This document shows positions 2,646 through 37,032 of a stretch of DNA of 37,032 nt, one piece after another. The position numbers and the translations under genes are program-made. The number at the start of each line of letters is the position of its first letter. The first letter of the stretch is position 1. Source of the DNA: a virus; IMG/VR virus record IMGVR_UViG_3300034682_000181, positions 1 to 37,032 of that record. The stretch is one strand, 5' to 3'. A model generated the notes under the pieces. That model ran no database searches, was not told the DNA's origin, and saw only the letters and a list, made by a program, of their open reading frames with translations.

Positions 2646-3089
2646 ATGCAGATTGAAGTAGATGGCGATCAGGTGGTTTTACCTGGCTTAAATGACCAGG
2701 CAAAGTTTGTTGCATTACAGCGGGCAAAAGAGCTGGCGCAGGCCGTCGATGCCATCTGTCAGCAGCCGATGATCGATATACCGCTAACGCTGGACGGGAA
2801 GCCGATCAGCGAAGATGATTACCCGAAAACGCACCTGCTGGAACAGAAAAGGGGCTGGGAACCGCCGCACCAGGAACTGGTTAGAGCGTACTTTGAACAA
2901 CTGAAGGCGTATGACAGCAAGTATTCTGAAAACGGCATCGCTGAACTGTTGGATTTATCAAGCGGGCGGGCTGTACGCAATTTTAAATCAGGGGAAAGGC
3001 CAGTGCCTTATGCTGTGTGGCGTAAGTTTCTGGTGGCCACGGGGCGGGCTCCAATCGATATGCCGAAGATGATAGGCTTTTTTAAATAA
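2646..3089 (+). CDS. HTH domain phage protein, possible regulator
   Basis: 147 residues from the ATG after AGGGGC. The C-terminal half carries an HTH-like segment: GIAELLDLSSGRAVRNFKSG then ERPVPYAVWRKFLVATGRAP. In this pattern a Cro/YdaS-like recognition helix is followed by a 'G.RP.PY..WR..L..tG' tail, which I know from small phage-associated regulators. The N-terminal half has no recognised domain. Co-transcribed with the HsdS-like gene behind the twin operator promoter, so autoregulation is plausible. Confidence 0.6.
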   Translation: MQIEVDGDQVVLPGLNDQAKFVALQRAKELAQAVDAICQQPMIDIPLTLDGKPISEDDYPKTHLLEQKRGWEPPHQELVRAYFEQLKAYDSKYSENGIAELLDLSSGRAVRNFKSGERPVPYAVWRKFLVATGRAPIDMPKMIGFFK

Positions 3090-9036: not shown

Positions 9037-10170
9037 TTATGCTGCTACGTCGAAGATTTCGCCAGTCGTGGCAAGTCGCGTTGCCTGGCGGAATGTCATG
9101 CGCTCAGCCACTGTGTAAAGGGCCAGCTCATAGTCGAAAAACACCTGCTTATTCGCCAGTGCCGCGTTGTCGTTCAGTTCTTCGTCAAACCAAACTTTGC
9201 CGGAAGCAATAACACCACGCTTGACCAGCGCCCGCAGGAAGTTGTTAACCCGGCTTAAAACCGAATCCACGTAATCCGCTGTGACCAGCTGATCAACGTA
9301 TGCCTGGTGCGCGGCCAGAATGGAATCAGCAACGATATTGCGGATCCGCTCATGCGGGATCAGCGTGCCGTCAGCCAGGCAGTTGCCCCAGAAGTAAAAA
9401 CCACCGTCCTGACGTACAATTGTACAAATGTTCTTTTCTGAGTAAAGGTTAGACAGGCTGTTAGCACTGCCCAGGATATGATCCACCGGCTTACTGGTAC
9501 CCGTAATGCCAAACATTTTTTTGTTTGAAGGTGAATGCCAGTAGCCCAGTTCTTCATCAACACGGACGATATGGCCAGCCACAGCTGCCGAACCCTTGCG
9601 CTTATCTTCACCGTAAGCAATGCCCGGGTTAACAAAAATCGCCTTGGCATAAGCGCCGCGTTCAGTGTCAACCGCAGCAAGTGCGCCTTCGCTGCCGTCA
9701 ATAATCGGGATGGCACGCAGTTTTTGCGCCACGGCTTCAAGCTGAGCGCCCACCAGCGGAATGTGCGAAAACTCGGGGGCGATCAGCAGGCGGGGCCGAA
9801 CACCCGTCAGCGCTTCTGCATAGGCCAGCGCTTCAATGCCGGTGCGGCTTTCATCAGCCCCGATAGCGCCAATCACATTGGTTTGTGTTTCTGCAGCTTC
9901 AGCACCTTCAGGTACGCGAATAACCACCACCAGGGCGCGGGCCTGTTTGTAAATGTCTGTCAGTGCGTTGGCCAGTGTGCCAGTGGTGCCGGCTTTGCCA
10001 ATCACCTTGTCAGAGCTAACCAGAACCGGCGTGTTCAGCGGAAAGGTTGTAGCATCAGCATCAGTTGCAGTAGCAACCAAGCCAATCACAGACGCCCGCA
10101 GCACCTTAATTGGCTGCTGTGGGTCGCTTAAAATAATAACTTCAGGGCCGTGCAAATATTCTGCAGCCAT
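9037..10170 (-). CDS. FI: Contractile tail sheath protein gpFI
   Basis: 377 residues, P2 FI/T4 gp18 sheath family. The start has HGPEVIILSDPQQPIKVLR; the conserved domain GVRPRLLIAPEFSH and WGNCLADGTLIPH segments follow. The C-terminal domain contains YDYELALYTVAERMTFRQ-like residues. It proves a contractile tail. An octamer-like stretch (9413-9436) lies within its coding sequence and is probably a coincidence of codons, though it matches the regulatory octamer. Confidence 0.95.
   Translation of the reverse strand: MAAEYLHGPEVIILSDPQQPIKVLRASVIGLVATATDADATTFPLNTPVLVSSDKVIGKAGTTGTLANALTDIYKQARALVVVIRVPEGAEAAETQTNVIGAIGADESRTGIEALAYAEALTGVRPRLLIAPEFSHIPLVGAQLEAVAQKLRAIPIIDGSEGALAAVDTERGAYAKAIFVNPGIAYGEDKRKGSAAVAGHIVRVDEELGYWHSPSNKKMFGITGTSKPVDHILGSANSLSNLYSEKNICTIVRQDGGFYFWGNCLADGTLIPHERIRNIVADSILAAHQAYVDQLVTADYVDSVLSRVNNFLRALVKRGVIASGKVWFDEELNDNAALANKQVFFDYELALYTVAERMTFRQATRLATTGEIFDVAA
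9413..9436 (-). repeat. Possible fifth octamer cluster inside the sheath gene
   Basis: CGTACAAT, TGTACAAA and TGTTCTTT follow each other head to tail on the + strand, i.e. TTTGTACA and relatives on the minus strand. One octamer is perfect and two are degenerate. It is inside a conserved coding region (KNICTIVR), so it may be chance. Confidence 0.3.
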
Positions 10171-27930: not shown

Positions 27931-28110
27931 CTATTTCCCCCGCTGGCCTTTATCGGTAATGCGTTGCTGCACTTCCTTTCTGTGAACAGGGATAGTTGCC
28001 GGCGCATCCACGCCCACTTTCACCTGATTACCATGAACCCCTAAAACCTTCACTTCGATGTCACCATCGATGATCACGCTTTCCCCTATTTTTCGAGTAA
28101 GTATCAACAT
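27931..28110 (-). CDS. csrA: CsrA/RsmA-family post-transcriptional regulator encoded by the phage
   Basis: 59 residues, starting [17 protein letters not shown], then [20 protein letters not shown] and [12 protein letters not shown]. This follows the CsrA family almost position by position (E. coli: MLILTRRVGE, VLGVKGNQVRIGV, VHREEIYQRI). The key RNA-binding Arg of the VHR motif (R44) is present. CsrA dimers bind GGA motifs in hairpins near ribosome binding sites and change translation or stability. Here it could reprogramme host metabolism or time phage genes. It ends 2 bp before the methylase start. Very secure family call. Confidence 0.95.
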
Positions 28111-28477: not shown

Positions 28478-29137
28478 TTATGCGGCGCTACGGTCACGGC
28501 TTTCCTGTCCAACCAGCTGCAGGGCTTGGCTGTCCAGATGGGCCAGAATGGTTAATAACTGATTCCAGAACGGCCCCCAGTCGCGCCGCCAATTGGATTC
28601 GCTGACCATCAACAGGCCAGCCAGGATCTGAATGGTGTAAAGTTTTCTGCGGTTCGCAGCACCTTCTCTGAAGTGCAGCAGGGCGTTGAACGTCAGGGCG
28701 CGCAGCTTCTGCACTTTGCTGGCCTTCAGCTGGGTTTCATGCAGACGTTCCCACGCAGCTATAAACAGTTCCATGCGTGACCAGGTGTATTCAGCAACTG
28801 CAGTGACACTTTCCCAGTCGCTGCAGTCGCGCACATAGCACAACATCACCAGCGCTTTATGATGACCGGGTAATTGATTGACCGCCCGAACAACGCGGGC
28901 ATGAGCAAAAGCATCATCATGTAACGGGCAGCTGCTGGTACCCTTTGCCCGTGTTGCCACGGCGTAAGTGATTTCACGTTGACCAGTAACGAGGCCGTCA
29001 GCATCCACAACTTTAATGGGCTTGCTCATGCCACCTTCTGCCAGATTGTCCGGCACCAGGCTTCTATTGGCCCGGCGTTCAGCGGTAAAGGCCGCCCGAA
29101 TTTCGCACCTTATAGAATCGTTGTACTGCTCAGTCAT
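28478..29137 (-). CDS. Q-like late antiterminator candidate
   Basis: 219 residues from ATG 29137, overlapping the cro stop by ATGA (AGGG about 10 bp upstream). Contains HARVVRAVNQLPGHHKALVML and EYTWSRMELFIAAWERLHE, followed by QKLRALTFNALLHFREGA. I base the Q assignment on position: immediately downstream of cro, in the same orientation as the late operon, with a pR'-tR' arrangement further downstream. The sequence resembles helical antitermination proteins (phage antitermination Q) only in general. It could alternatively be another late activator. Confidence 0.55.
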   Translation of the reverse strand: MTEQYNDSIRCEIRAAFTAERRANRSLVPDNLAEGGMSKPIKVVDADGLVTGQREITYAVATRAKGTSSCPLHDDAFAHARVVRAVNQLPGHHKALVMLCYVRDCSDWESVTAVAEYTWSRMELFIAAWERLHETQLKASKVQKLRALTFNALLHFREGAANRRKLYTIQILAGLLMVSESNWRRDWGPFWNQLLTILAHLDSQALQLVGQESRDRSAA

Positions 29138-29388
29138 GCAGCGGCCCTTTTTGTTTTTTCGTACCTTTGTACAAATGTACAAATGTTTGTTTGTGCGGAT
29201 AACTCAGCAGCGCTGCCAGGCTCTGGCACGTATTTAACCCGGCCCTTGGTTCTGGCTTCGATTTCATAGCCCCAACCCCGTGGCACATACTCCGGCCATT
29301 GGTAAATGGCCTGCGGTGTTATGCCCAGGATATTGGCCAGCAAACTGGCATTGCCGCCGAAAATTTCGATTAGTTGAGCTGTTTTCAT
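29134..29388 (-). CDS. cro: Cro-like repressor (YdaS/Cro type HTH)
   Basis: 84 residues. MKTAQLIEIFGGNASLLANI then LGITPQAIYQW form an HTH (recognition helix PQAIYQWPE) typical for Cro/YdaS proteins, followed by the usual VPRGWGYEIEARTKGRV. Divergent from the cI-like gene across 105 bp containing palindromes. The last codons (TNICTFVQR) are made of the TTTGTACA octamers of array 3, so the array lies inside this gene. No Shine-Dalgarno is visible upstream of the ATG; a palindromic operator lies eight bases before it. Confidence 0.85.
   Translation of the reverse strand: MKTAQLIEIFGGNASLLANILGITPQAIYQWPEYVPRGWGYEIEARTKGRVKYVPEPGSAAELSAQTNICTFVQRYEKTKRAAA
29160..29191 (-). repeat. Octamer array 3, within cro 3' end upstream of Q
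   Basis: TGTACAAA at 29168-29175 and 29176-29183 on the + strand, with degenerate octamers on both sides (CGTACCTT, TGTTTGTT). On the minus strand the TTTGTACA repeats read into Q, whose start is at 29137, 31 bp downstream. Confidence 0.7.
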
Positions 29389-29396
29389 AGCAATTG

Positions 29397-29416
29397 AGTG
29401 TAAATATATTTACACT
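29397..29416. promoter_or_regulatory. cro/cI operator O1, 20-bp perfect palindrome
   Basis: AGTGTAAATATATTTACACT is perfectly self-complementary and the symmetry extends with CAAT/ATTG four bases farther out on both sides. It lies 8 bp from the cro start. It also contains TATATT on the minus strand, a possible -10 for cro. Confidence 0.8.
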
Positions 29417-29441
29417 TCATTGCAAAGGATTTCGACAAAGA

Positions 29442-29493: not shown

Positions 29494-30162
29494 ATGATTG
29501 ATTACTCAAAACTTACGAGAGGGGAACGGATAAAGCTTAGGCGTGATGCCTGCAAGCTGTCCCCGGGGTATATAGCGAAGTTCATTGGCGTCAGCCGGGT
29601 AACATATCTGTACTGGGAAGATGGGAAGGTCAATGATATTGCCTGGCCTAAGTTTGAAAAGCTGGCTGAAGTGCTACTTACAACCACGCACTGGCTGGAA
29701 TACGGCAAGGCCAATGAGCTTTATGTGTGCAATGACATTGACGGCGAGATCACGCAGTCACTGGAAGGCGTGCATATCATTAAATCCAATAGTATTCCGG
29801 TGCTTGGCACGCTGGACAAACTGATCGACAAAAGCAAGCATACTGAAGTGGTTGACCTGCCGGCGAAGAACAGTGAGATATTCGCGCTTCGCCTGCCTAA
29901 AGCCAGCTCTATGTGCCGCGCTCATGCGGGGGATGCCATCATATTGGATCCGAACTGTGAGCTGTTGCCAGGGGAAGAAGTGTTTTTGCGGTTCATTAAA
30001 GACAAAACGCCAGGCGTATTGTGTACCTTCAACTATCAGAAAGATGGTCAAGTGCATTGTACTACTGAAGAAGGTAAGGCTATATTTGACTGCGCAGACA
30101 TATACAGAATTTACGCAGTTATTGCGGTAGCCCGTAACGGACACATAAAAAATAAACGATGA
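29494..30162 (+). CDS. cI: CI-like prophage repressor (HTH + S24-like domain)
   Basis: 222 residues. The N-terminal HTH (GERIKLRRDACKLSPGYIAK then GVSRVTYLYWEDGK, residues 10-45) is followed by a linker and an S24/LexA-like C-terminal domain from about residue 100. The Ser of the catalytic pair aligns with KASSM (S139), followed by GDAIILDP and LLPGEEV as in CI. The Lys of the pair seems replaced (TFNYQ; N180 aligns with the expected Lys). The usual Ala-Gly or Cys-Gly cleavage site is absent in the linker (VLGTLDKL instead). This suggests a repressor that is not cleaved by RecA. It is divergent from cro and probably maintains lysogeny. Confidence 0.85.
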   Translation: MIDYSKLTRGERIKLRRDACKLSPGYIAKFIGVSRVTYLYWEDGKVNDIAWPKFEKLAEVLLTTTHWLEYGKANELYVCNDIDGEITQSLEGVHIIKSNSIPVLGTLDKLIDKSKHTEVVDLPAKNSEIFALRLPKASSMCRAHAGDAIILDPNCELLPGEEVFLRFIKDKTPGVLCTFNYQKDGQVHCTTEEGKAIFDCADIYRIYAVIAVARNGHIKNKR

Positions 30163-30183
30163 TCGACATTGATCCTTGTCGAT
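30162..30183. promoter_or_regulatory. Inverted repeat after cI
   Basis: ATCGACA-8 nt-TGTCGAT, starting at the cI stop codon. It could be an operator for rep control or a weak terminator; no T-run follows. Confidence 0.4.
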
Positions 30184-30226
30184 ATGTTTACATTGAGATA
30201 GTATTGCTCAGCGAGGGAAAGAAATG

Positions 30227-30441: not shown

Positions 30442-30473
30442 TTTGTGCATACGTACATTTGTACATTTGTACA
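30442..30473 (+). repeat. Octamer array 4, upstream of repA
   Basis: TTTGTGCA, TACGTACA, TTTGTACA, TTTGTACA in tandem on the + strand, two perfect. The array ends 23 bp before the repA start codon. Same orientation relative to its gene as in the parA, terS and Q arrays. Confidence 0.75.
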
Positions 30474-30496: not shown

Positions 30497-33400
30497 ATGA
30501 GCTATTCCAGAACTATGGGGCTGGATCTGACCAGCGCACTTGATGCGTTAAGTCATATCAGCGCTAACATCGATTATAAAGACTGGTCGAACATCGGCCG
30601 GGCGCTTGCTTCAGAATTTGGCGACGATGCCAGAGACGGCTTTGAAAGCTGGTCTGAAGGGGGCGATTCGTACAACTCCCGTGAATTCAATGCGCAGTGG
30701 AATTCCTTTAAGCGCACCAAGAAAGTTAATATTTCAACGCTGATTTACCACGCGAAGCAAGCGGGCTGGTCGCCTGAAAAATCAGAACCCCTGTCTGACA
30801 TTGAAAAGCAGCGCCTGAAGAATGAACGGGCTGAACGCCGTAAAGTGCGTGAGCAAAAAGCAGAACGCGCAGCGCACCGCAAGAACCGCCGTTCAGCGGC
30901 GTTTTACAGCAGCCTGCCGGCACTGGCAAAGCACAAGAACCCATCACCGTATCAGGTGGATAAGCACTTAGAAGATGCGCAGCGCTTCAGTGAATTCAAA
31001 GAGTACCATTCAACTAACGGCCGCCGTAAAAAGCACCTGCTGGTTATCCCGCTAAGGGATATCGAAGGCAACTGGCGCGGGGCTGAATTGATACACGCCT
31101 GGCGTAAGACCCGAAACCAGAAAACGGGCAAATTACGCCACTTCAGACGGACAATGACAGGAACCGAGCCAGCGCTCGGTTTTCACGTTTTCCCGAACCA
31201 TGACGCCCTGAAAACAGCGAAGCGGGTTTTTATTACGGAAGGCTGGGCCGATGGCGTATGGGCGCATAAGGCCAGCGGCGAAGTAACCGCTTATGTGATC
31301 GGTAGTCATAATGTCCCGACGATAGCCGGCATCATCCAGCAGGCTTACCCTGACTGCCAGGTGATCACTGCGGCCGATAATGACAAAGCCGGTAAAGCGG
31401 CCACAACCGCCCACGGCGGTTACTGGACAATGCCACTGGCACAAAATGACTGGTCAGACGTAGCGGCACAGGAAGGGGCTGATTCACTGAAAGCCCAGCT
31501 GCTGAATATCCGTGGCTTTCAGAAATGCCTGGTTAACGAGCGTTATCTGGGCAACGCCACTGGCGCCAAAATTCGCCCGGGCCTGAATCTGGTGAAGTCA
31601 GCCAAAGAAACCGGCAAATCTAGCTGGATCATCGAGTTTATGAACAACAACCTGAACCTGTCGGTTCTGGTTATCAGCTACCGTAAGAACCTGGTTAATC
31701 AGCTGGCACAAAAAGCCGGCGTCGATTACTACGAAGATTTAATTAACGTTGACCGCTTCGGCAACTTCAGCAACGTTGAGCTGAGAAAATCCAGCCGCCT
31801 GGCGATTTCTCCGGACAGCCTTTACAAGCTGATCGAAAAAGGCACCGTGCGCCCTTATGACGTGGTTTTTGTCGATGAATGCGATCAAACGCTGATGCAC
31901 TATGACGCTGACACGATGAAGAACAAAGAAAAGAACTTTGGCGTTATGTCATGGCTGCTGAAGCACAGCCAGTACCAGGTGCTGGCCGATGCGGATTTAA
32001 GCGATCTGACCATTGAATACTGCAATGACATTGGCCTGAACCGTGGCCAGTTCATCATTAACGAGTTCAAGCCGCGCCAGGGCTCAGATATGTTCCTGTA
32101 CCACCACAACATGCACTTACGGGATGCGTTGTTACGGCGGGCCGCTGTTGAGCCAATTTTCTACTGCAGCAACTCAAAAGAACGGGTGTTAGAGGTTGAA
32201 CGCTTATTACAGGCCGCTGGTATCAATGAAACCAAAATACAGGCGATACACTCGGGCAACTCCGGTACCGCTGAAATTCAGCAGTTTATTGTTGATATCA
32301 ACAACCAGGTAAACCGTCTGCATGTGCTGCTGGCCAGTCCGTCGATGGGTACCGGCGTTTCTATCGATGAAGGCCACCCATTCAAAGCGGTATTTGCTGA
32401 GTTCAGCCACCGCACCGGCACCGCTGAGCAAGCGCATCAGCAAATGGCCCGTACCCGGGCTGTGACTGAATACCATGTTTTTGTTGATCCGACCTTCCAC
32501 AACTTTGAAACGAACCCGGACGAACTGCGCCGCGTGATGCTCGATAAACCCGAGCTGGACAGCGAACACCTATTCACCTTCGATATTCACCAGGGCGAAA
32601 TGGTGGCCAGAAACCCAGAGTTTGAAGCCCTGCACTGCCGGATCCGCGCCTTCCGTAACCTGAACCGCAATTGCTTTGCTGAGCGCTTTATCCAGCAGGC
32701 CGAAGCGGAAGGCTACGCCATTCAGAAAGTAGCTTTTAACGAAGATGCGGCTGAAGTGCTGAAGGATAAAACAGACCTGATCCGCGAAGAACTGACGGCA
32801 GAACTGCGCGAACGCATCTACGACGATGAACAGCACCCGATCCTGAGCGACGATGATTTCAAAGCGGCCGAACTGGGCAGCATCAGCGTCAGCGAAGAAA
32901 GCCGACTGAAAACGAAGGTGATGAAAAGCCTGGCGCTGGCTGACTATCTGCGGTACCCGAGCCTGGTTAAACCTGAAGTTATACATGACATGGTAAAACG
33001 CCTGGCATTTATGGAAGCCACTGAAGGCTATGTTAACGGCATCAAAAAGCTGTCTGTTATCGCTCAGCCGGAAAACGTGGCCATCCTGCGCGACATTGAA
33101 GATCGGAAGTTCGCGGAATCCCGCGCCGGCCTGAAACACTTTACCGCCCAGCGCCGGCATGAACTGCGCTTTTTGAAAGCGGTAGGCATTGACGAAAACC
33201 TGAACTTTAACGGCAAGGTGTGGCAGAGCAAAGAAGTGGCCAATGCCATGCGCCAGTACCTGAAGAAGCACAAGGACGAAATACAGGCGTATTCAGGTTC
33301 CACTATCACAGCCAAAACACTGAAAGACCCTATCAGATGGTTCTGCGACCACCTGAAGGCCATGAACGTGCCGCTGGTGGCCTTCCAGCGCCGTGTGAGC

Positions 33401-34069
33401 GGCAAACAGGTATGGTTCAGAACTGTGGATGAACAGCAGTGGAAAATGGTTACGCGCCTGGTTAAATCCCGTGTACGCGGCCTGACTGCCTACTACGCCG
33501 AAAAAGGTGAAGAACTGGGCAAAATCACTGTGCAAAAACCTGTGGTTCAGCAGGTCGAAACCGTCACAGAAACTGTCACACAGAACGCGCTTGTTTATAA
33601 TAATACTGACGGTTCCCATGTGACAGCTAAATCGCCCGCTAACCTATACGTGGCGAGGCTTAAAGCTGATCCTGAAGGACAGGGGAAAACAACGATCCCC
33701 CCGGCTGAATTGAACAACAACGATCTGGCTGTTTCACCGTTTGAAAAATTCATTGATTCTGTCAGCGAACCGTCAAGCACTCAGCGGGAACGGTTAAAGC
33801 TGGCTGAAGTGTTCCCAGCGGCCCACAAAGCGAAATACAACGCCGGGCTAATGTCAGACAAGGATCTACGCAGTTGGATTGAATATGGCGCTTCTGGCGC
33901 GTTCAGAACGGCAGTGTTTAACGTGGCCAGTGCAGTTAAGCATCTAATGCCAGGCTGCAGCAATTTGGTTGATGAAGTTATGGGCCGGTTTACGGCAGAA
34001 CATGCCAGGGAATTTTGTAAGGGGGCGTTATCGGTCAGCGACCTGGTGGCGGTAATAAGGAACGGCTGA
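30497..34069 (+). CDS. repA: RepA-like multidomain replication protein (primase/helicase)
   Basis: 1190 residues, the type of single-protein replicase of N15 RepA (1324). Residues about 14-92 resemble a primase C-terminal (PriCT) domain. A Toprim domain follows around 243-300 (VFITEGWADGVW with E248; TAADNDKAGKAA with D294 and D296). An SF2-type helicase follows: Walker A-like VKSAKETGKSS (about 366-376), Walker B VVFVDECDQT (about 456-465) and the later helicase motifs HSGNSGTAEI and ASPSMGTGVSID then QQMARTR. The last resembles the origin-binding helicase (UL9-like) group. The C-terminal 450 residues are unassigned. It starts ATG 30497 after TGGGGC. The origin in N15 lies inside repA, so it may also here. 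Confidence 0.9.
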   Translation: MSYSRTMGLDLTSALDALSHISANIDYKDWSNIGRALASEFGDDARDGFESWSEGGDSYNSREFNAQWNSFKRTKKVNISTLIYHAKQAGWSPEKSEPLSDIEKQRLKNERAERRKVREQKAERAAHRKNRRSAAFYSSLPALAKHKNPSPYQVDKHLEDAQRFSEFKEYHSTNGRRKKHLLVIPLRDIEGNWRGAELIHAWRKTRNQKTGKLRHFRRTMTGTEPALGFHVFPNHDALKTAKRVFITEGWADGVWAHKASGEVTAYVIGSHNVPTIAGIIQQAYPDCQVITAADNDKAGKAATTAHGGYWTMPLAQNDWSDVAAQEGADSLKAQLLNIRGFQKCLVNERYLGNATGAKIRPGLNLVKSAKETGKSSWIIEFMNNNLNLSVLVISYRKNLVNQLAQKAGVDYYEDLINVDRFGNFSNVELRKSSRLAISPDSLYKLIEKGTVRPYDVVFVDECDQTLMHYDADTMKNKEKNFGVMSWLLKHSQYQVLADADLSDLTIEYCNDIGLNRGQFIINEFKPRQGSDMFLYHHNMHLRDALLRRAAVEPIFYCSNSKERVLEVERLLQAAGINETKIQAIHSGNSGTAEIQQFIVDINNQVNRLHVLLASPSMGTGVSIDEGHPFKAVFAEFSHRTGTAEQAHQQMARTRAVTEYHVFVDPTFHNFETNPDELRRVMLDKPELDSEHLFTFDIHQGEMVARNPEFEALHCRIRAFRNLNRNCFAERFIQQAEAEGYAIQKVAFNEDAAEVLKDKTDLIREELTAELRERIYDDEQHPILSDDDFKAAELGSISVSEESRLKTKVMKSLALADYLRYPSLVKPEVIHDMVKRLAFMEATEGYVNGIKKLSVIAQPENVAILRDIEDRKFAESRAGLKHFTAQRRHELRFLKAVGIDENLNFNGKVWQSKEVANAMRQYLKKHKDEIQAYSGSTITAKTLKDPIRWFCDHLKAMNVPLVAFQRRVSGKQVWFRTVDEQQWKMVTRLVKSRVRGLTAYYAEKGEELGKITVQKPVVQQVETVTETVTQNALVYNNTDGSHVTAKSPANLYVARLKADPEGQGKTTIPPAELNNNDLAVSPFEKFIDSVSEPSSTQRERLKLAEVFPAAHKAKYNAGLMSDKDLRSWIEYGASGAFRTAVFNVASAVKHLMPGCSNLVDEVMGRFTAEHAREFCKGALSVSDLVAVIRNG

Positions 34070-34091: not shown

Positions 34092-34340
34092 TTAACGGCG
34101 TAGTTTATCGAGTAAAGCCACAATGCCAGTAACCTGTTCTTTAAGGCCCAGGTAAAAACCAGCATGGCCGTCACTGGCCGCATCCATAGCGAAAGCCAAT
34201 GAACCGTCTAAAATATCAGCCTTAGCTTCGATTTCATCCAGTATGGCCAACTTCCTTGATTCAGCCGAAGCAAGTATATCTTGCTCCACTTCCGTTAACA
34301 TTGCCTGTCCGTGATCTTGGTGTTTTGCGGTGTTACTCAT
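34092..34340 (-). CDS. Hypothetical acidic protein
   Basis: 82 residues, helical; starts MSNTAKHQDHGQAM, then LTEVEQDILASAESRKLAI. Ends VTGIVALLDKLRR. No recognised family. It lies behind repA in opposite orientation, downstream of the membrane protein gene, and may be the last gene of the transcript starting near 35100. Confidence 0.6.
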   Translation of the reverse strand: MSNTAKHQDHGQAMLTEVEQDILASAESRKLAILDEIEAKADILDGSLAFAMDAASDGHAGFYLGLKEQVTGIVALLDKLRR

Positions 34341-34360
34341 TTTTCTGTCCTTACAGCTAA

Positions 34361-34882
34361 TTATTCAATTAGCCCTTTCTCTTTTAGCCTTTTAACTGCC
34401 TGAATCGTTTGGTTCGTCAGGTACGTTAAAATCAGAGCTTCCACGCCAAGCAACGCCCGCTTAACCGGTGTGTAATAGTCGTAAAAGTGATGGCCTTCTA
34501 ATCCCAGCGCATAGTGCCAGAACCGGAAAAAATCACCAAACACACTAAGGTTATAAGCGATAGATAAAGCGAAAACGGCGATTAACGCTTTTTCTATTTT
34601 AAGGGGCCGGTACATTGAATGCGGCACCAGCATTGCAGACACTATGAACCGAAAGCGGATCAGCAGAATCATCAGCAAATCATTCAGGCTGTGGGCAACA
34701 TAGAACCATGCCCGGTACTCTGACGACTTCAGCGGCTGCAATGCCGGCGTTAACAAAAACATATCAACTGCTTTGGGGATTAGCATCACAATAAGCAGCG
34801 CCCCTAGGTTTGCGTTCCTTCTGGCGAGGTAAGCCAAGAAGGCAGTCCATGCAATGAAACTATAATTAATGTATATTTCCAC
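34361..34882 (-). CDS. Multi-pass membrane protein, unknown function
   Basis: 173 residues with about four to five hydrophobic helices (YSFIAWTAFLAYLA, GALLIVMLIPKAVDMFLL, ALIAVFALSIAYNL and others). The start MEIYINYSF is preceded by a weak site. It may belong to the conserved unknown membrane proteins near rep genes in plasmid-prophages; an exclusion function is possible but unproven. Confidence 0.6.
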   Translation of the reverse strand: MEIYINYSFIAWTAFLAYLARRNANLGALLIVMLIPKAVDMFLLTPALQPLKSSEYRAWFYVAHSLNDLLMILLIRFRFIVSAMLVPHSMYRPLKIEKALIAVFALSIAYNLSVFGDFFRFWHYALGLEGHHFYDYYTPVKRALLGVEALILTYLTNQTIQAVKRLKEKGLIE

Positions 34883-34895
34883 GTCCTATCTAGCA

Positions 34896-35027
34896 CTAAA
34901 CTTTCTTTTCAGTGCTTTCCTCTTCTTTTTTCGCAGGTACCTGTTGTGGCGCTGGTGGATCTGTCTTATCTCCGCCGCCGCTGCCCATTGCGAAATGTTT
35001 GAAATTCAAGGGATTGCCGATAATCAT
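34896..35027 (-). CDS. Small protein of 43 residues, unknown function
   Basis: Found by reading the minus strand: MIIGNPLNFKHFAMGSGGGD at the start and a Pro-rich then charged C terminus (PAKKEEESTEKKV). AAGGAGC stands 5 bp before the ATG, one of the best ribosome binding sites in the window, and the gene precedes the membrane protein by 13 bp. Its size would suit an antirepressor or a toxin-like small protein, but nothing in the sequence proves a function. Confidence 0.55.
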   Translation of the reverse strand: MIIGNPLNFKHFAMGSGGGDKTDPPAPQQVPAKKEEESTEKKV

Positions 35028-35244: not shown

Positions 35245-36864
35245 CTAAGCGCCAGCTTTCTTAATATCGTCTTTGTGTTTGGAAAATTTGGCATAAGCCT
35301 TTTGCATGGCATCGGCCATGCTGGCCGCTTTACCTTCCCAGGTGTGCGTTTTTTCGCCCAGCTTCATCAGTACCTTCCAAACCCCATCCCGAACCGGAAG
35401 CGCTTTGAATGATGGTTTTACTGGTGCCGGTGTGGCTTCCACCTGTTTAATTTCAACCGCGGGGGCTTGCTCTGGGGCTTCACCATTCAGGGCATCGTCA
35501 GCCAGTGCCAGATAGTCCTTTATTGCGCCGCGGCTGCTGCCCAGTTCGCGGGAAATGCGCGACTGAGTGATCACCGCATTATCATCAGCCTTCAGCTGTT
35601 CCTTCACCCAGGCATGTATTTTTTCCATTGCTTCACGGCGGGCAATTTCGCTGTGGCCATCCAGCTTTTTGATACCGGCCAAACGGGAAACCGCTTTTTC
35701 AGGTGCCGGCGCGGCTTCTTCGTCGTACTCGATATGGAATTTTTTATAGCCAATCTGGGTGTCAGTATCTTCATGGCCCAGCATTTCCTGCCAGAACAAA
35801 TCCTCTGACCGTTTGGTTTTCTTGCGCCACTCTGCATAGTGCAAATCATGCACGGCCCGCGCCCATATATCGCGGCTGTCTTTGAACACAAACGACTGAT
35901 CACCCAGCACCCGCTTGGCCAAGCGGTTAAGGTTCCCAGCACAGCGGCTGTTTATCCTGGCGTTGCGCGTCACTTCCGGCAGTGAATCAAATTCGGCCAG
36001 TTCCTGTATTTCAGGCATGGCCCGCAGCTCTGCCCAGGCATCGACCACCAGCTTGGCGTCAACCAGTGTGTAAATGGTGGCCGCGTCTGAGTAGTCAGCG
36101 CCGCCGCGTTTTTTGGCTTGGCCAGTAAACTTCACCTGGTGATCTGATACCCGTTCAATTTCGCCCTGGTACAGCACTTCAATCTGACGGCGGCCAGTGG
36201 CCAGAGCCAACCCAAGCGCCAGCTGGTTATAATTAAAAACAGATTCACCGCCGCTGACGCGGCTTTTTTTGGTCAGCAGGTCGTAAATGGTCGAGATCAG
36301 CCAGTTGTAGCTGATAGTCACCTGGGTACTGATTTTCTGGTACCGCTTTTCGGCCTGCTCATCTTCCAGATTTTCTTTTGTGGCACTTGGCATGGTCAGG
36401 TGGCGCATTATTTCGTGGTCAAGCTTCATCGCTTTGATATCGGCATGGGCTGCATCGTCGCCGGCTTTCTTCGCTCTGTTCAGGATGGCTGCCCAGGCTT
36501 CCCGTAACGGCGTAATTGATTTACCCAGCAACGCCTGCAGGTCGTCAGCATATTCTGGGTAACGTGCTGCCAGTGTGGCCACCTGCTTATCTAAGCTGTG
36601 GTGAACCCAGTTCTGTTCTGTGACAGCCCGGCGCAACTGTGTCAGGTACTTGCGGTACGTGGAAGGGGCTATTTTGTCAGTTTCCTTACGGCGTTTATCG
36701 TCGTGCAGCTGGTTCTTTATCTTCTCTGCCAGGCGGGTAATGGCTTTCGTTTTCTCTGACCGGGATAGGGATTCATCACCATCTATCACCTTAACGCCGT
36801 CAATTAAATCCTTGGTTATCTGGTGCAGGTCAACTTTACTGCTGCGTTTTGCTGTGTCTGTCAT
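35245..36864 (-). CDS. telN: Protelomerase (telomere resolvase, TelN/TelK family)
   Basis: 539 residues, similar in size to those of VP882-type phages (about 520-540) and shorter than N15 TelN (631). Catalytic residues of the tyrosine recombinase type are visible: R225 in LATGRRQIEVL, a Lys in TGQAKKRGG (251/252), R331 in FKDSRDIWAR, H364 and Y373 in MLGHEDTDTQIGY. The H-to-Y spacing of nine equals that of TelK (416/425). The C terminus has an HTH (ISRELGSSRGAIKDY) and a small domain (about 485-535). It cuts the palindrome formed by the window ends and seals hairpins. It lies next to the right telomere, transcribed away from it. Confidence 0.95.
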   Translation of the reverse strand: MTDTAKRSSKVDLHQITKDLIDGVKVIDGDESLSRSEKTKAITRLAEKIKNQLHDDKRRKETDKIAPSTYRKYLTQLRRAVTEQNWVHHSLDKQVATLAARYPEYADDLQALLGKSITPLREAWAAILNRAKKAGDDAAHADIKAMKLDHEIMRHLTMPSATKENLEDEQAEKRYQKISTQVTISYNWLISTIYDLLTKKSRVSGGESVFNYNQLALGLALATGRRQIEVLYQGEIERVSDHQVKFTGQAKKRGGADYSDAATIYTLVDAKLVVDAWAELRAMPEIQELAEFDSLPEVTRNARINSRCAGNLNRLAKRVLGDQSFVFKDSRDIWARAVHDLHYAEWRKKTKRSEDLFWQEMLGHEDTDTQIGYKKFHIEYDEEAAPAPEKAVSRLAGIKKLDGHSEIARREAMEKIHAWVKEQLKADDNAVITQSRISRELGSSRGAIKDYLALADDALNGEAPEQAPAVEIKQVEATPAPVKPSFKALPVRDGVWKVLMKLGEKTHTWEGKAASMADAMQKAYAKFSKHKDDIKKAGA

Positions 36865-36995
36865 GGCCGTATTCCTTATTTATTTATACATATCTGAGCA
36901 ACTAAGCACTAACTGTACATTATATAATCGTACATAGCAAGGCATTATATACACGTGTACACAGCTAAGCAATACCGCAATACATAACACACCGC
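36865..36995. other. Non-coding right subtelomeric region with protelomerase promoter
   Basis: No gene. It contains TATATAAT-like stretches (TATATAATCG, TTATATAC), the 14-bp direct repeat at 36930-36943 and the telomere-like GTGTACACA at 36955-36963. Position and AT-richness suggest the leftward promoter of the protelomerase, possibly autoregulated by binding to the telomere motifs. Confidence 0.45.
36930..36943 (+). repeat. Subtelomeric 14-bp direct repeat, right copy
   Basis: Perfect copy of GTACATAGCAAGGC from 87-100, in direct orientation, about 100 bp from the right end. It lies between the protelomerase start codon and the telomere arm. Confidence 0.6.
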
Positions 36996-37032
36996 CCCAG
37001 CCTAGCTATGTATACACAATGGTGCTAATGCT
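36996..37032. other. telR: Right telomere arm (other half of protelomerase target site)
   Basis: Blocks CCCAGCC (36996-37002), AGCTATGTATACACA (37004-37018) and GCTAATGCT (37024-37032) are the exact reverse complements of the three left-arm blocks, separated by the same 1- and 5-base spacers. Joining the window's right end to its left end gives a long palindrome centred on TACGTA at positions 1-6. It is one base (an A) short of perfect symmetry at the centre. That base may have been lost in assembly at the hairpin or junction. Confidence 0.85.

Follow-up and report, generated by a model that had tools for sequence, protein, structure and literature searches.

The CI-type repressor encoded by the virus record analysed here is, with a probability that we put at roughly 0.65, a non-cleavable lysogeny repressor of a telomere phage, derepressed most likely by a binding antirepressor as in phages N15 and 186. 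The stretch analysed, hereafter the window, is the whole record of 37,032 bases, and its features are collected in Table 1. SOS is often regarded as the universal prophage trigger, and an entire group of linear plasmid phages whose repressors seem unable to cleave themselves would need other triggers. The protein is a new example of an already known non-cleaving kind of repressor, not a new kind.

Table 1. Coordinates of the features of the window discussed in the text.
Feature	Position	Strand	Remarks
Anti-termination protein Q-like	28478..29137	-	
Cro-like repressor	29134..29388	-	divergent from cI; Pfam P22_Cro
34-bp palindrome, core TGTAAATATATTTACA	29390..29423	.	between cro and cI; likely CI/Cro operator
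CI-type repressor, 222 aa	29494..30162	+	HTH ~9-60, low-confidence linker 74-98, S24/LexA-like C-terminal domain ~101-213
K109-L110 codons	29818..29823	+	column of Ala-Gly cleavage pair
S138 codon	29905..29907	+	aligned with catalytic Ser (lambda S149)
C177 codon	30022..30024	+	column of catalytic Lys (lambda K192)
Second operator-core copy, imperfect	30177..30192	.	between cI and repA, 3 mismatches
RepA replication protein/primase	30497..34069	+	nearest VHML/MAR/ARM81ld type
82-aa protein	34092..34340	-	candidate antirepressor by position; pairs with L003 77-aa ORF
Multi-span membrane protein, 173 aa	34361..34882	-	41% identical to L003/L004 protein, same locus
43-aa protein, SGGGDKTDPP motif	34896..35027	-	L003/L004 counterpart has SGGKDKTDPP twice
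Protelomerase TelN	35245..36864	-	47-51% identity to HAP-1/VP882 type

Judging from its genes, the phage looks like a telomere phage with an N15-like immunity region, a VHML/ARM81-like RepA and a VP882/HAP-1-like TelN. It is a mosaic, in which RepA is closest to VHML/MAR and ARM81ld, TelN to VP882 and HAP-1, and the repressor falls with N15, PY54, ARM81ld and Valp1 in the cI tree; at the DNA level no match of the record to phages and plasmids was found. The ends of the record are imperfect inverted repeats (1-45 versus 36990-37032), which together resemble the telomere palindrome of HAP-1 split in half, the left end, starting with TACGTATAG, matching its right half. ParA and TelN are encoded at opposite ends, and in VP882 and HAP-1 the same pair flanks the telomere site. 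The simplest reading is that the record would be a telomere phage in its prophage state, a linear plasmid running from hairpin to hairpin.

Several other elements were observed in the record. An 8-bp-period repeat, ATTTGTAC, is clustered upstream of parA (394-426), in a structural gene (9413-9434), at the cro/Q junction (29160-29181) and upstream of repA (30444-30473); allowing up to two mismatches, TGTACAWWTGTACA has 11 matches against 0.39 expected, and none of 100 shuffles gave as many. The repeat motif also occurs in L002, L006, L058, the VP882-like L008 and L016, MAR and VHML, sometimes just upstream of repA. The small protein at 1113-1436 is a homologue of VP882 gp52, and the repeats probably serve ParA and this protein as partition or operator sites. 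Moreover, the palindrome AGGCACAATGTGCCTA occurs twice without mismatch at 2196-2244, with a spacing of 33 bp, upstream of a unit of two genes (2318-2614 and 2646-3089) that match no known family, the whole looking like an autoregulated module, and a CsrA-like regulator (phrog_9500, E 1e-25) is encoded at 27931-28110.

The repressor has the fold of the CI/LexA (S24) family, an N-terminal HTH followed by a LexA-like C-terminal domain, according to a sub-threshold Pfam score for the HTH and to an AlphaFold2 model built with 24 sequences (mean pLDDT 77, with the linker 74-98 poorly predicted); Pfam recognised no S24 domain. Foldseek against the PDB places phage 186 CI at the top, at 11% sequence identity, followed by a lambda-186 hybrid, lambda CI and LexA, and the LexA C-terminal domains fit the model at about 3.5 Å with TM-scores of 0.6-0.66 by target length. 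A first-pass annotation of this DNA had proposed structure prediction with a CI/LexA alignment as a check, and the outcome agrees with it, the column of the dyad Lys being C177. The sequence is very divergent and sits on a long branch of the cI tree, as a decaying or mis-assembled repressor might; we consider such a gene scarcely credible, however, as against it stand a frame open over 222 aa with full-length homology to phage repressors, an HTH and a C-terminal fold that are both predicted intact, and an operator-like palindrome and a cro gene in place.

The profile used to assign residues was made from short-type telomere-phage repressors with the window excluded, and the repressor scores 80.8 bits against it; a profile of the lambda/VP882 subtype gave no alignment to the repressor. 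The short-type profile puts S138 in the column of the catalytic Ser and C177 in that of the Lys, both within well supported stretches, and MAFFT alignments concur; these predicted positions are assignments by sequence alignment. The first-pass annotation had already recognised that the Ser is retained and the Lys lost, naming S139, which is off by one, and N180, which is off by three and came from setting TF-N-Y against the TF-K-K of lambda. No Lys or Arg occurs in residues 172-182 (TPGVLCTFNYQ) in any register tried, and the Lys residues closest to C177, K171 and K183, are each six residues off, so that K183, whose presence in the active site would have spoken for cleavage, lies six residues beyond the aligned position.

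The cleavage pair is missing as well. Scanning residues 60-140 for AG, CG, TG, SG, AA and GG pairs found none, as had been reported earlier for Ala-Gly and Cys-Gly, and the column of the pair holds K109-L110; the loop bearing the scissile bond is about 9 residues shorter in the alignment than in Valp1/K242. The Lys of the dyad and the cleavage pair are absent from the repressor in every alignment made, and it thus has neither the Ser-Lys dyad nor the Ala-Gly/Cys-Gly linker pair of the RecA-inducible self-cleaving S24 repressors. In fact, AG-S-K is retained in all of ARM81ld, PhAER5, Valp1, K242, MAR, HY01, ST2 and VP882, and since all these eight relatives keep it the departure is real. No close relatives of the repressor were found in IMG/VR or in GTDB genomes; it is a lone sequence, and C177 stands without comparison.

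Because the Lys column holds Cys, the cleavage pair is Lys-Leu and the loop is about 9 residues short, RecA-dependent self-cleavage appears very unlikely, and we infer that the protein would stay uncleaved in vivo, very probably as the first-pass annotation had supposed. With the Ser retained the loss of activity could in principle be partial, and a repressor that still cleaves itself, its Lys being functionally replaced by a different base and its scissile bond being non-canonical, would fit both S138 and the LexA-like fold; yet the lack of Lys or Arg near position 177 and of any Ala-Gly-like pair, together with the short loop, makes this highly improbable.

The region around the gene, by sequence comparison, points to an immunity region of the N15 type: cI is divergent from cro-Q and adjoins repA in a telN phage, and the order cI / cro / Q-like, with no CII gene between, is that of N15. 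The 34-bp palindrome between cro and cI has 15 of 17 positions paired; the window contains no other such palindrome (0 in 40 shuffles), and this one is likely the operator of CI/Cro, as predicted from its sequence and place. For the 16-bp core, of which a second copy lies just 3' of cI, 0.06 matches are expected by chance in the whole window, and this copy, before repA, is probably a further CI operator. The operators bound by CB of N15 are located in the cB-cro interval and at its repA promoter (PMC4488713). The gene would then encode the lysogeny repressor of a linear plasmid (telomere) phage, whose LexA/S24-like C-terminal domain serves dimerisation and which may occupy, as its operator, the palindrome that separates cI from cro, and probably another one before repA.

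Such a protein would have a dead self-peptidase, lacking the Ala-Gly pair and part of the cleavage loop and having Cys for the catalytic Lys; RecA could thus not trigger its self-cleavage and, given this very probable lack, induction should need another signal, as was also expected in the first-pass annotation. Derepression would most likely come about through titration of the repressor by a protein that binds it, antirepressors being the inducers of N15 (AntC), 186 (Tum, which inactivates its CI) and the Gifsy phages. Against antirepressor control speaks the lack in the window of homologues of the tested antirepressors and partners (Qtip and VqmA of VP882, gp50 and gp51 of N15), and the XRE protein of MAR has none either. 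The same lack would suit a non-cleavable repressor with no dedicated antirepressor, released passively (by a fall in CI, replication imbalance or host physiology) or rarely induced, as would the record ends, whose likeness to telomere halves indicates that the sequenced form is the plasmid-prophage. However, the frames of cro, Q and the structural and lysis-type genes are all open, so that a working switch is expected, and antirepressors are what the telomere phages studied so far use when their repressor is not cleaved; passive release is therefore rather unlikely.

A special case of antirepressor control would be induction coupled to SOS through a LexA-controlled phage antirepressor in the style of AntC and Tum, for which N15, 186 and the Gifsy phages are precedents; the antirepressor of N15 is a member of the SOS regulon (Mardanov and Ravin 2007, cited in PMC3121763), which makes mitomycin C induction alone, one of the tests suggested earlier, non-decisive. 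The window holds no perfect CTGT-N8-ACAG box, a consensus that may not be that of the host, and its one-mismatch sites (19 versus 13 expected by chance, a number that does not exceed the chance level) include none upstream of the 34092-35027 operon, so that we regard this version as possible but doubtful.

Antirepressor control of a more general kind would have its best candidate locus in this repA-telN operon, which consists of three codirectional genes for proteins of 43 aa, 173 aa (membrane) and 82 aa. Two TelN-related loci, L003 and L004, have the same three-gene set in the same order and locus, but inverted relative to repA and telN, and the third gene of L003, a 77-aa ORF, touches telN exactly at the place of Qtip in VP882. 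The pairing of this ORF with the 82-aa protein exceeds chance, coming at the top of 2408 decoys and being reached in 3 of 2000 shuffles. The 82-aa protein is given no support as a member of the Qtip-place family, whose profile ranks it 590 of 2234, so that what speaks for it as a candidate is its location and its pairing with the L003 ORF. The SGGxDKTDPP motif was found elsewhere only in L003/L004 and in one chance-looking high-GC contig in IMG/VR, and in none of 274 genomes. The small ORFs put forward as inducers in the first-pass annotation, 1507-1659 and 34896-35027, both have ribosome-binding sites, but for the former (50 aa) no relative was found and the 82-aa gene is better placed than the latter; the choice finds no support here.

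The operon does not resemble a TF-smORF module of the VqmA-Qtip type, since its genes are codirectional and match no HTH family; the HTH-like ORF 2646-3089 was tried as a transcription factor and gave no usable family match. HAP-1-like phages have been reported without any TF-smORF module (PMC12802170). Most HAP-1-like and Pseudomonas loci carry an ORF of 77-110 aa beside telN at the Qtip place, the member in HAP-1 being ORF35, annotated as hypothetical, and helical-looking small ORFs convergent with telN were seen at L038:3614-3901 and at the telN 3' ends of L002-L036 and L058-L064. Among about 2,400 small ORFs Qtip is, weakly, the best-scoring non-member of this family (11-12 bits, E 0.03-0.055, 0 of 300 shuffles). 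The small proteins beside telN provide a directly testable list of candidate inducers.

Repressors from TelN-related loci were typed for Ala-Gly, Ser and Lys. In 35 of the 36 other loci typed (IMG/VR and genomes) at least one feature is absent, a count that includes many near-copies: Ser or Lys is replaced in 29, some of which might retain partial activity when the substitution is Lys to Arg or Ser to Thr, six keep Ser and Lys without Ala-Gly, Ala-Ala at the cleavage column being a reading of uncertain meaning, and only the VP882-like L008 has all three. Within the TelN-tree group of the window, VP882 and HAP-1, where the window is a long lone branch of unsure exact placement, one feature or more is missing from 21 of the 22 typed lineages. 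Compared with MAR, the cI of VHML appears frameshifted and was therefore excluded from the argument; the central block of the deposited repressor (L041:1900-2580) differs from MAR as a frameshift pair would give, probably through a sequencing error. Non-self-cleaving repressors are known from N15, and the same kind of loss appears, from these alignments, in nearly all related database phages.

A more speculative and rather unlikely extension is that the phages of the VP882/HAP-1/Pseudomonas TelN group are induced by a small helical protein encoded beside telN at the Qtip place, and that for this reason they lost self-cleavage repeatedly, VP882 having kept both routes; the window would then carry a diverged operon (SGGGDKTDPP peptide, membrane protein and 82-aa inducer) tying CI to a membrane or peptide signal, not to DNA damage.

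For 271 repA-telN phages, the predictions of Silpe et al. 2023 class 61 repressors as autoproteolytic and 210 as non-autoproteolytic, and the latter were set aside in that study (PMC10432266). VP882 has a TelN related to that of the window, and both have a small protein in the repA-telN locus. However, its CI belongs to the lambda/VP882 subtype and was shown to be autoproteolytic, with Qtip as an additional, SOS-independent route of induction (PMC10432266), and the window has no VqmA or recognisable Qtip; the analogy drawn in the first-pass annotation is weak on this point. The CI proteins of ARM81ld, Valp1 and K242 are the closest by sequence (about 25-30%) and lie at the same place beside repA in telomere phages, but they keep Ala-Gly, Ser and Lys, not all of which the window keeps. 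Phage 186 CI, inactivated by Tum, is the best PDB fold match, although 186 is not a telomere phage. N15 CB, which was shown to be non-proteolytic (PMC10432266), has TG/Gln/Gln where the window has KL/Ser/Cys, and the window has no detectable homologue of gp50 or gp51; like the window, N15 is a telomere phage and has a short-type S24-like repressor with catalytic residues lost, the cI/cro/Q order, and operators (operator-like sites in the window) between cI and cro and before repA. By analogy, N15 CB and 186 CI, which are uncleaved and removed by antirepressors, are better precedents than VP882.
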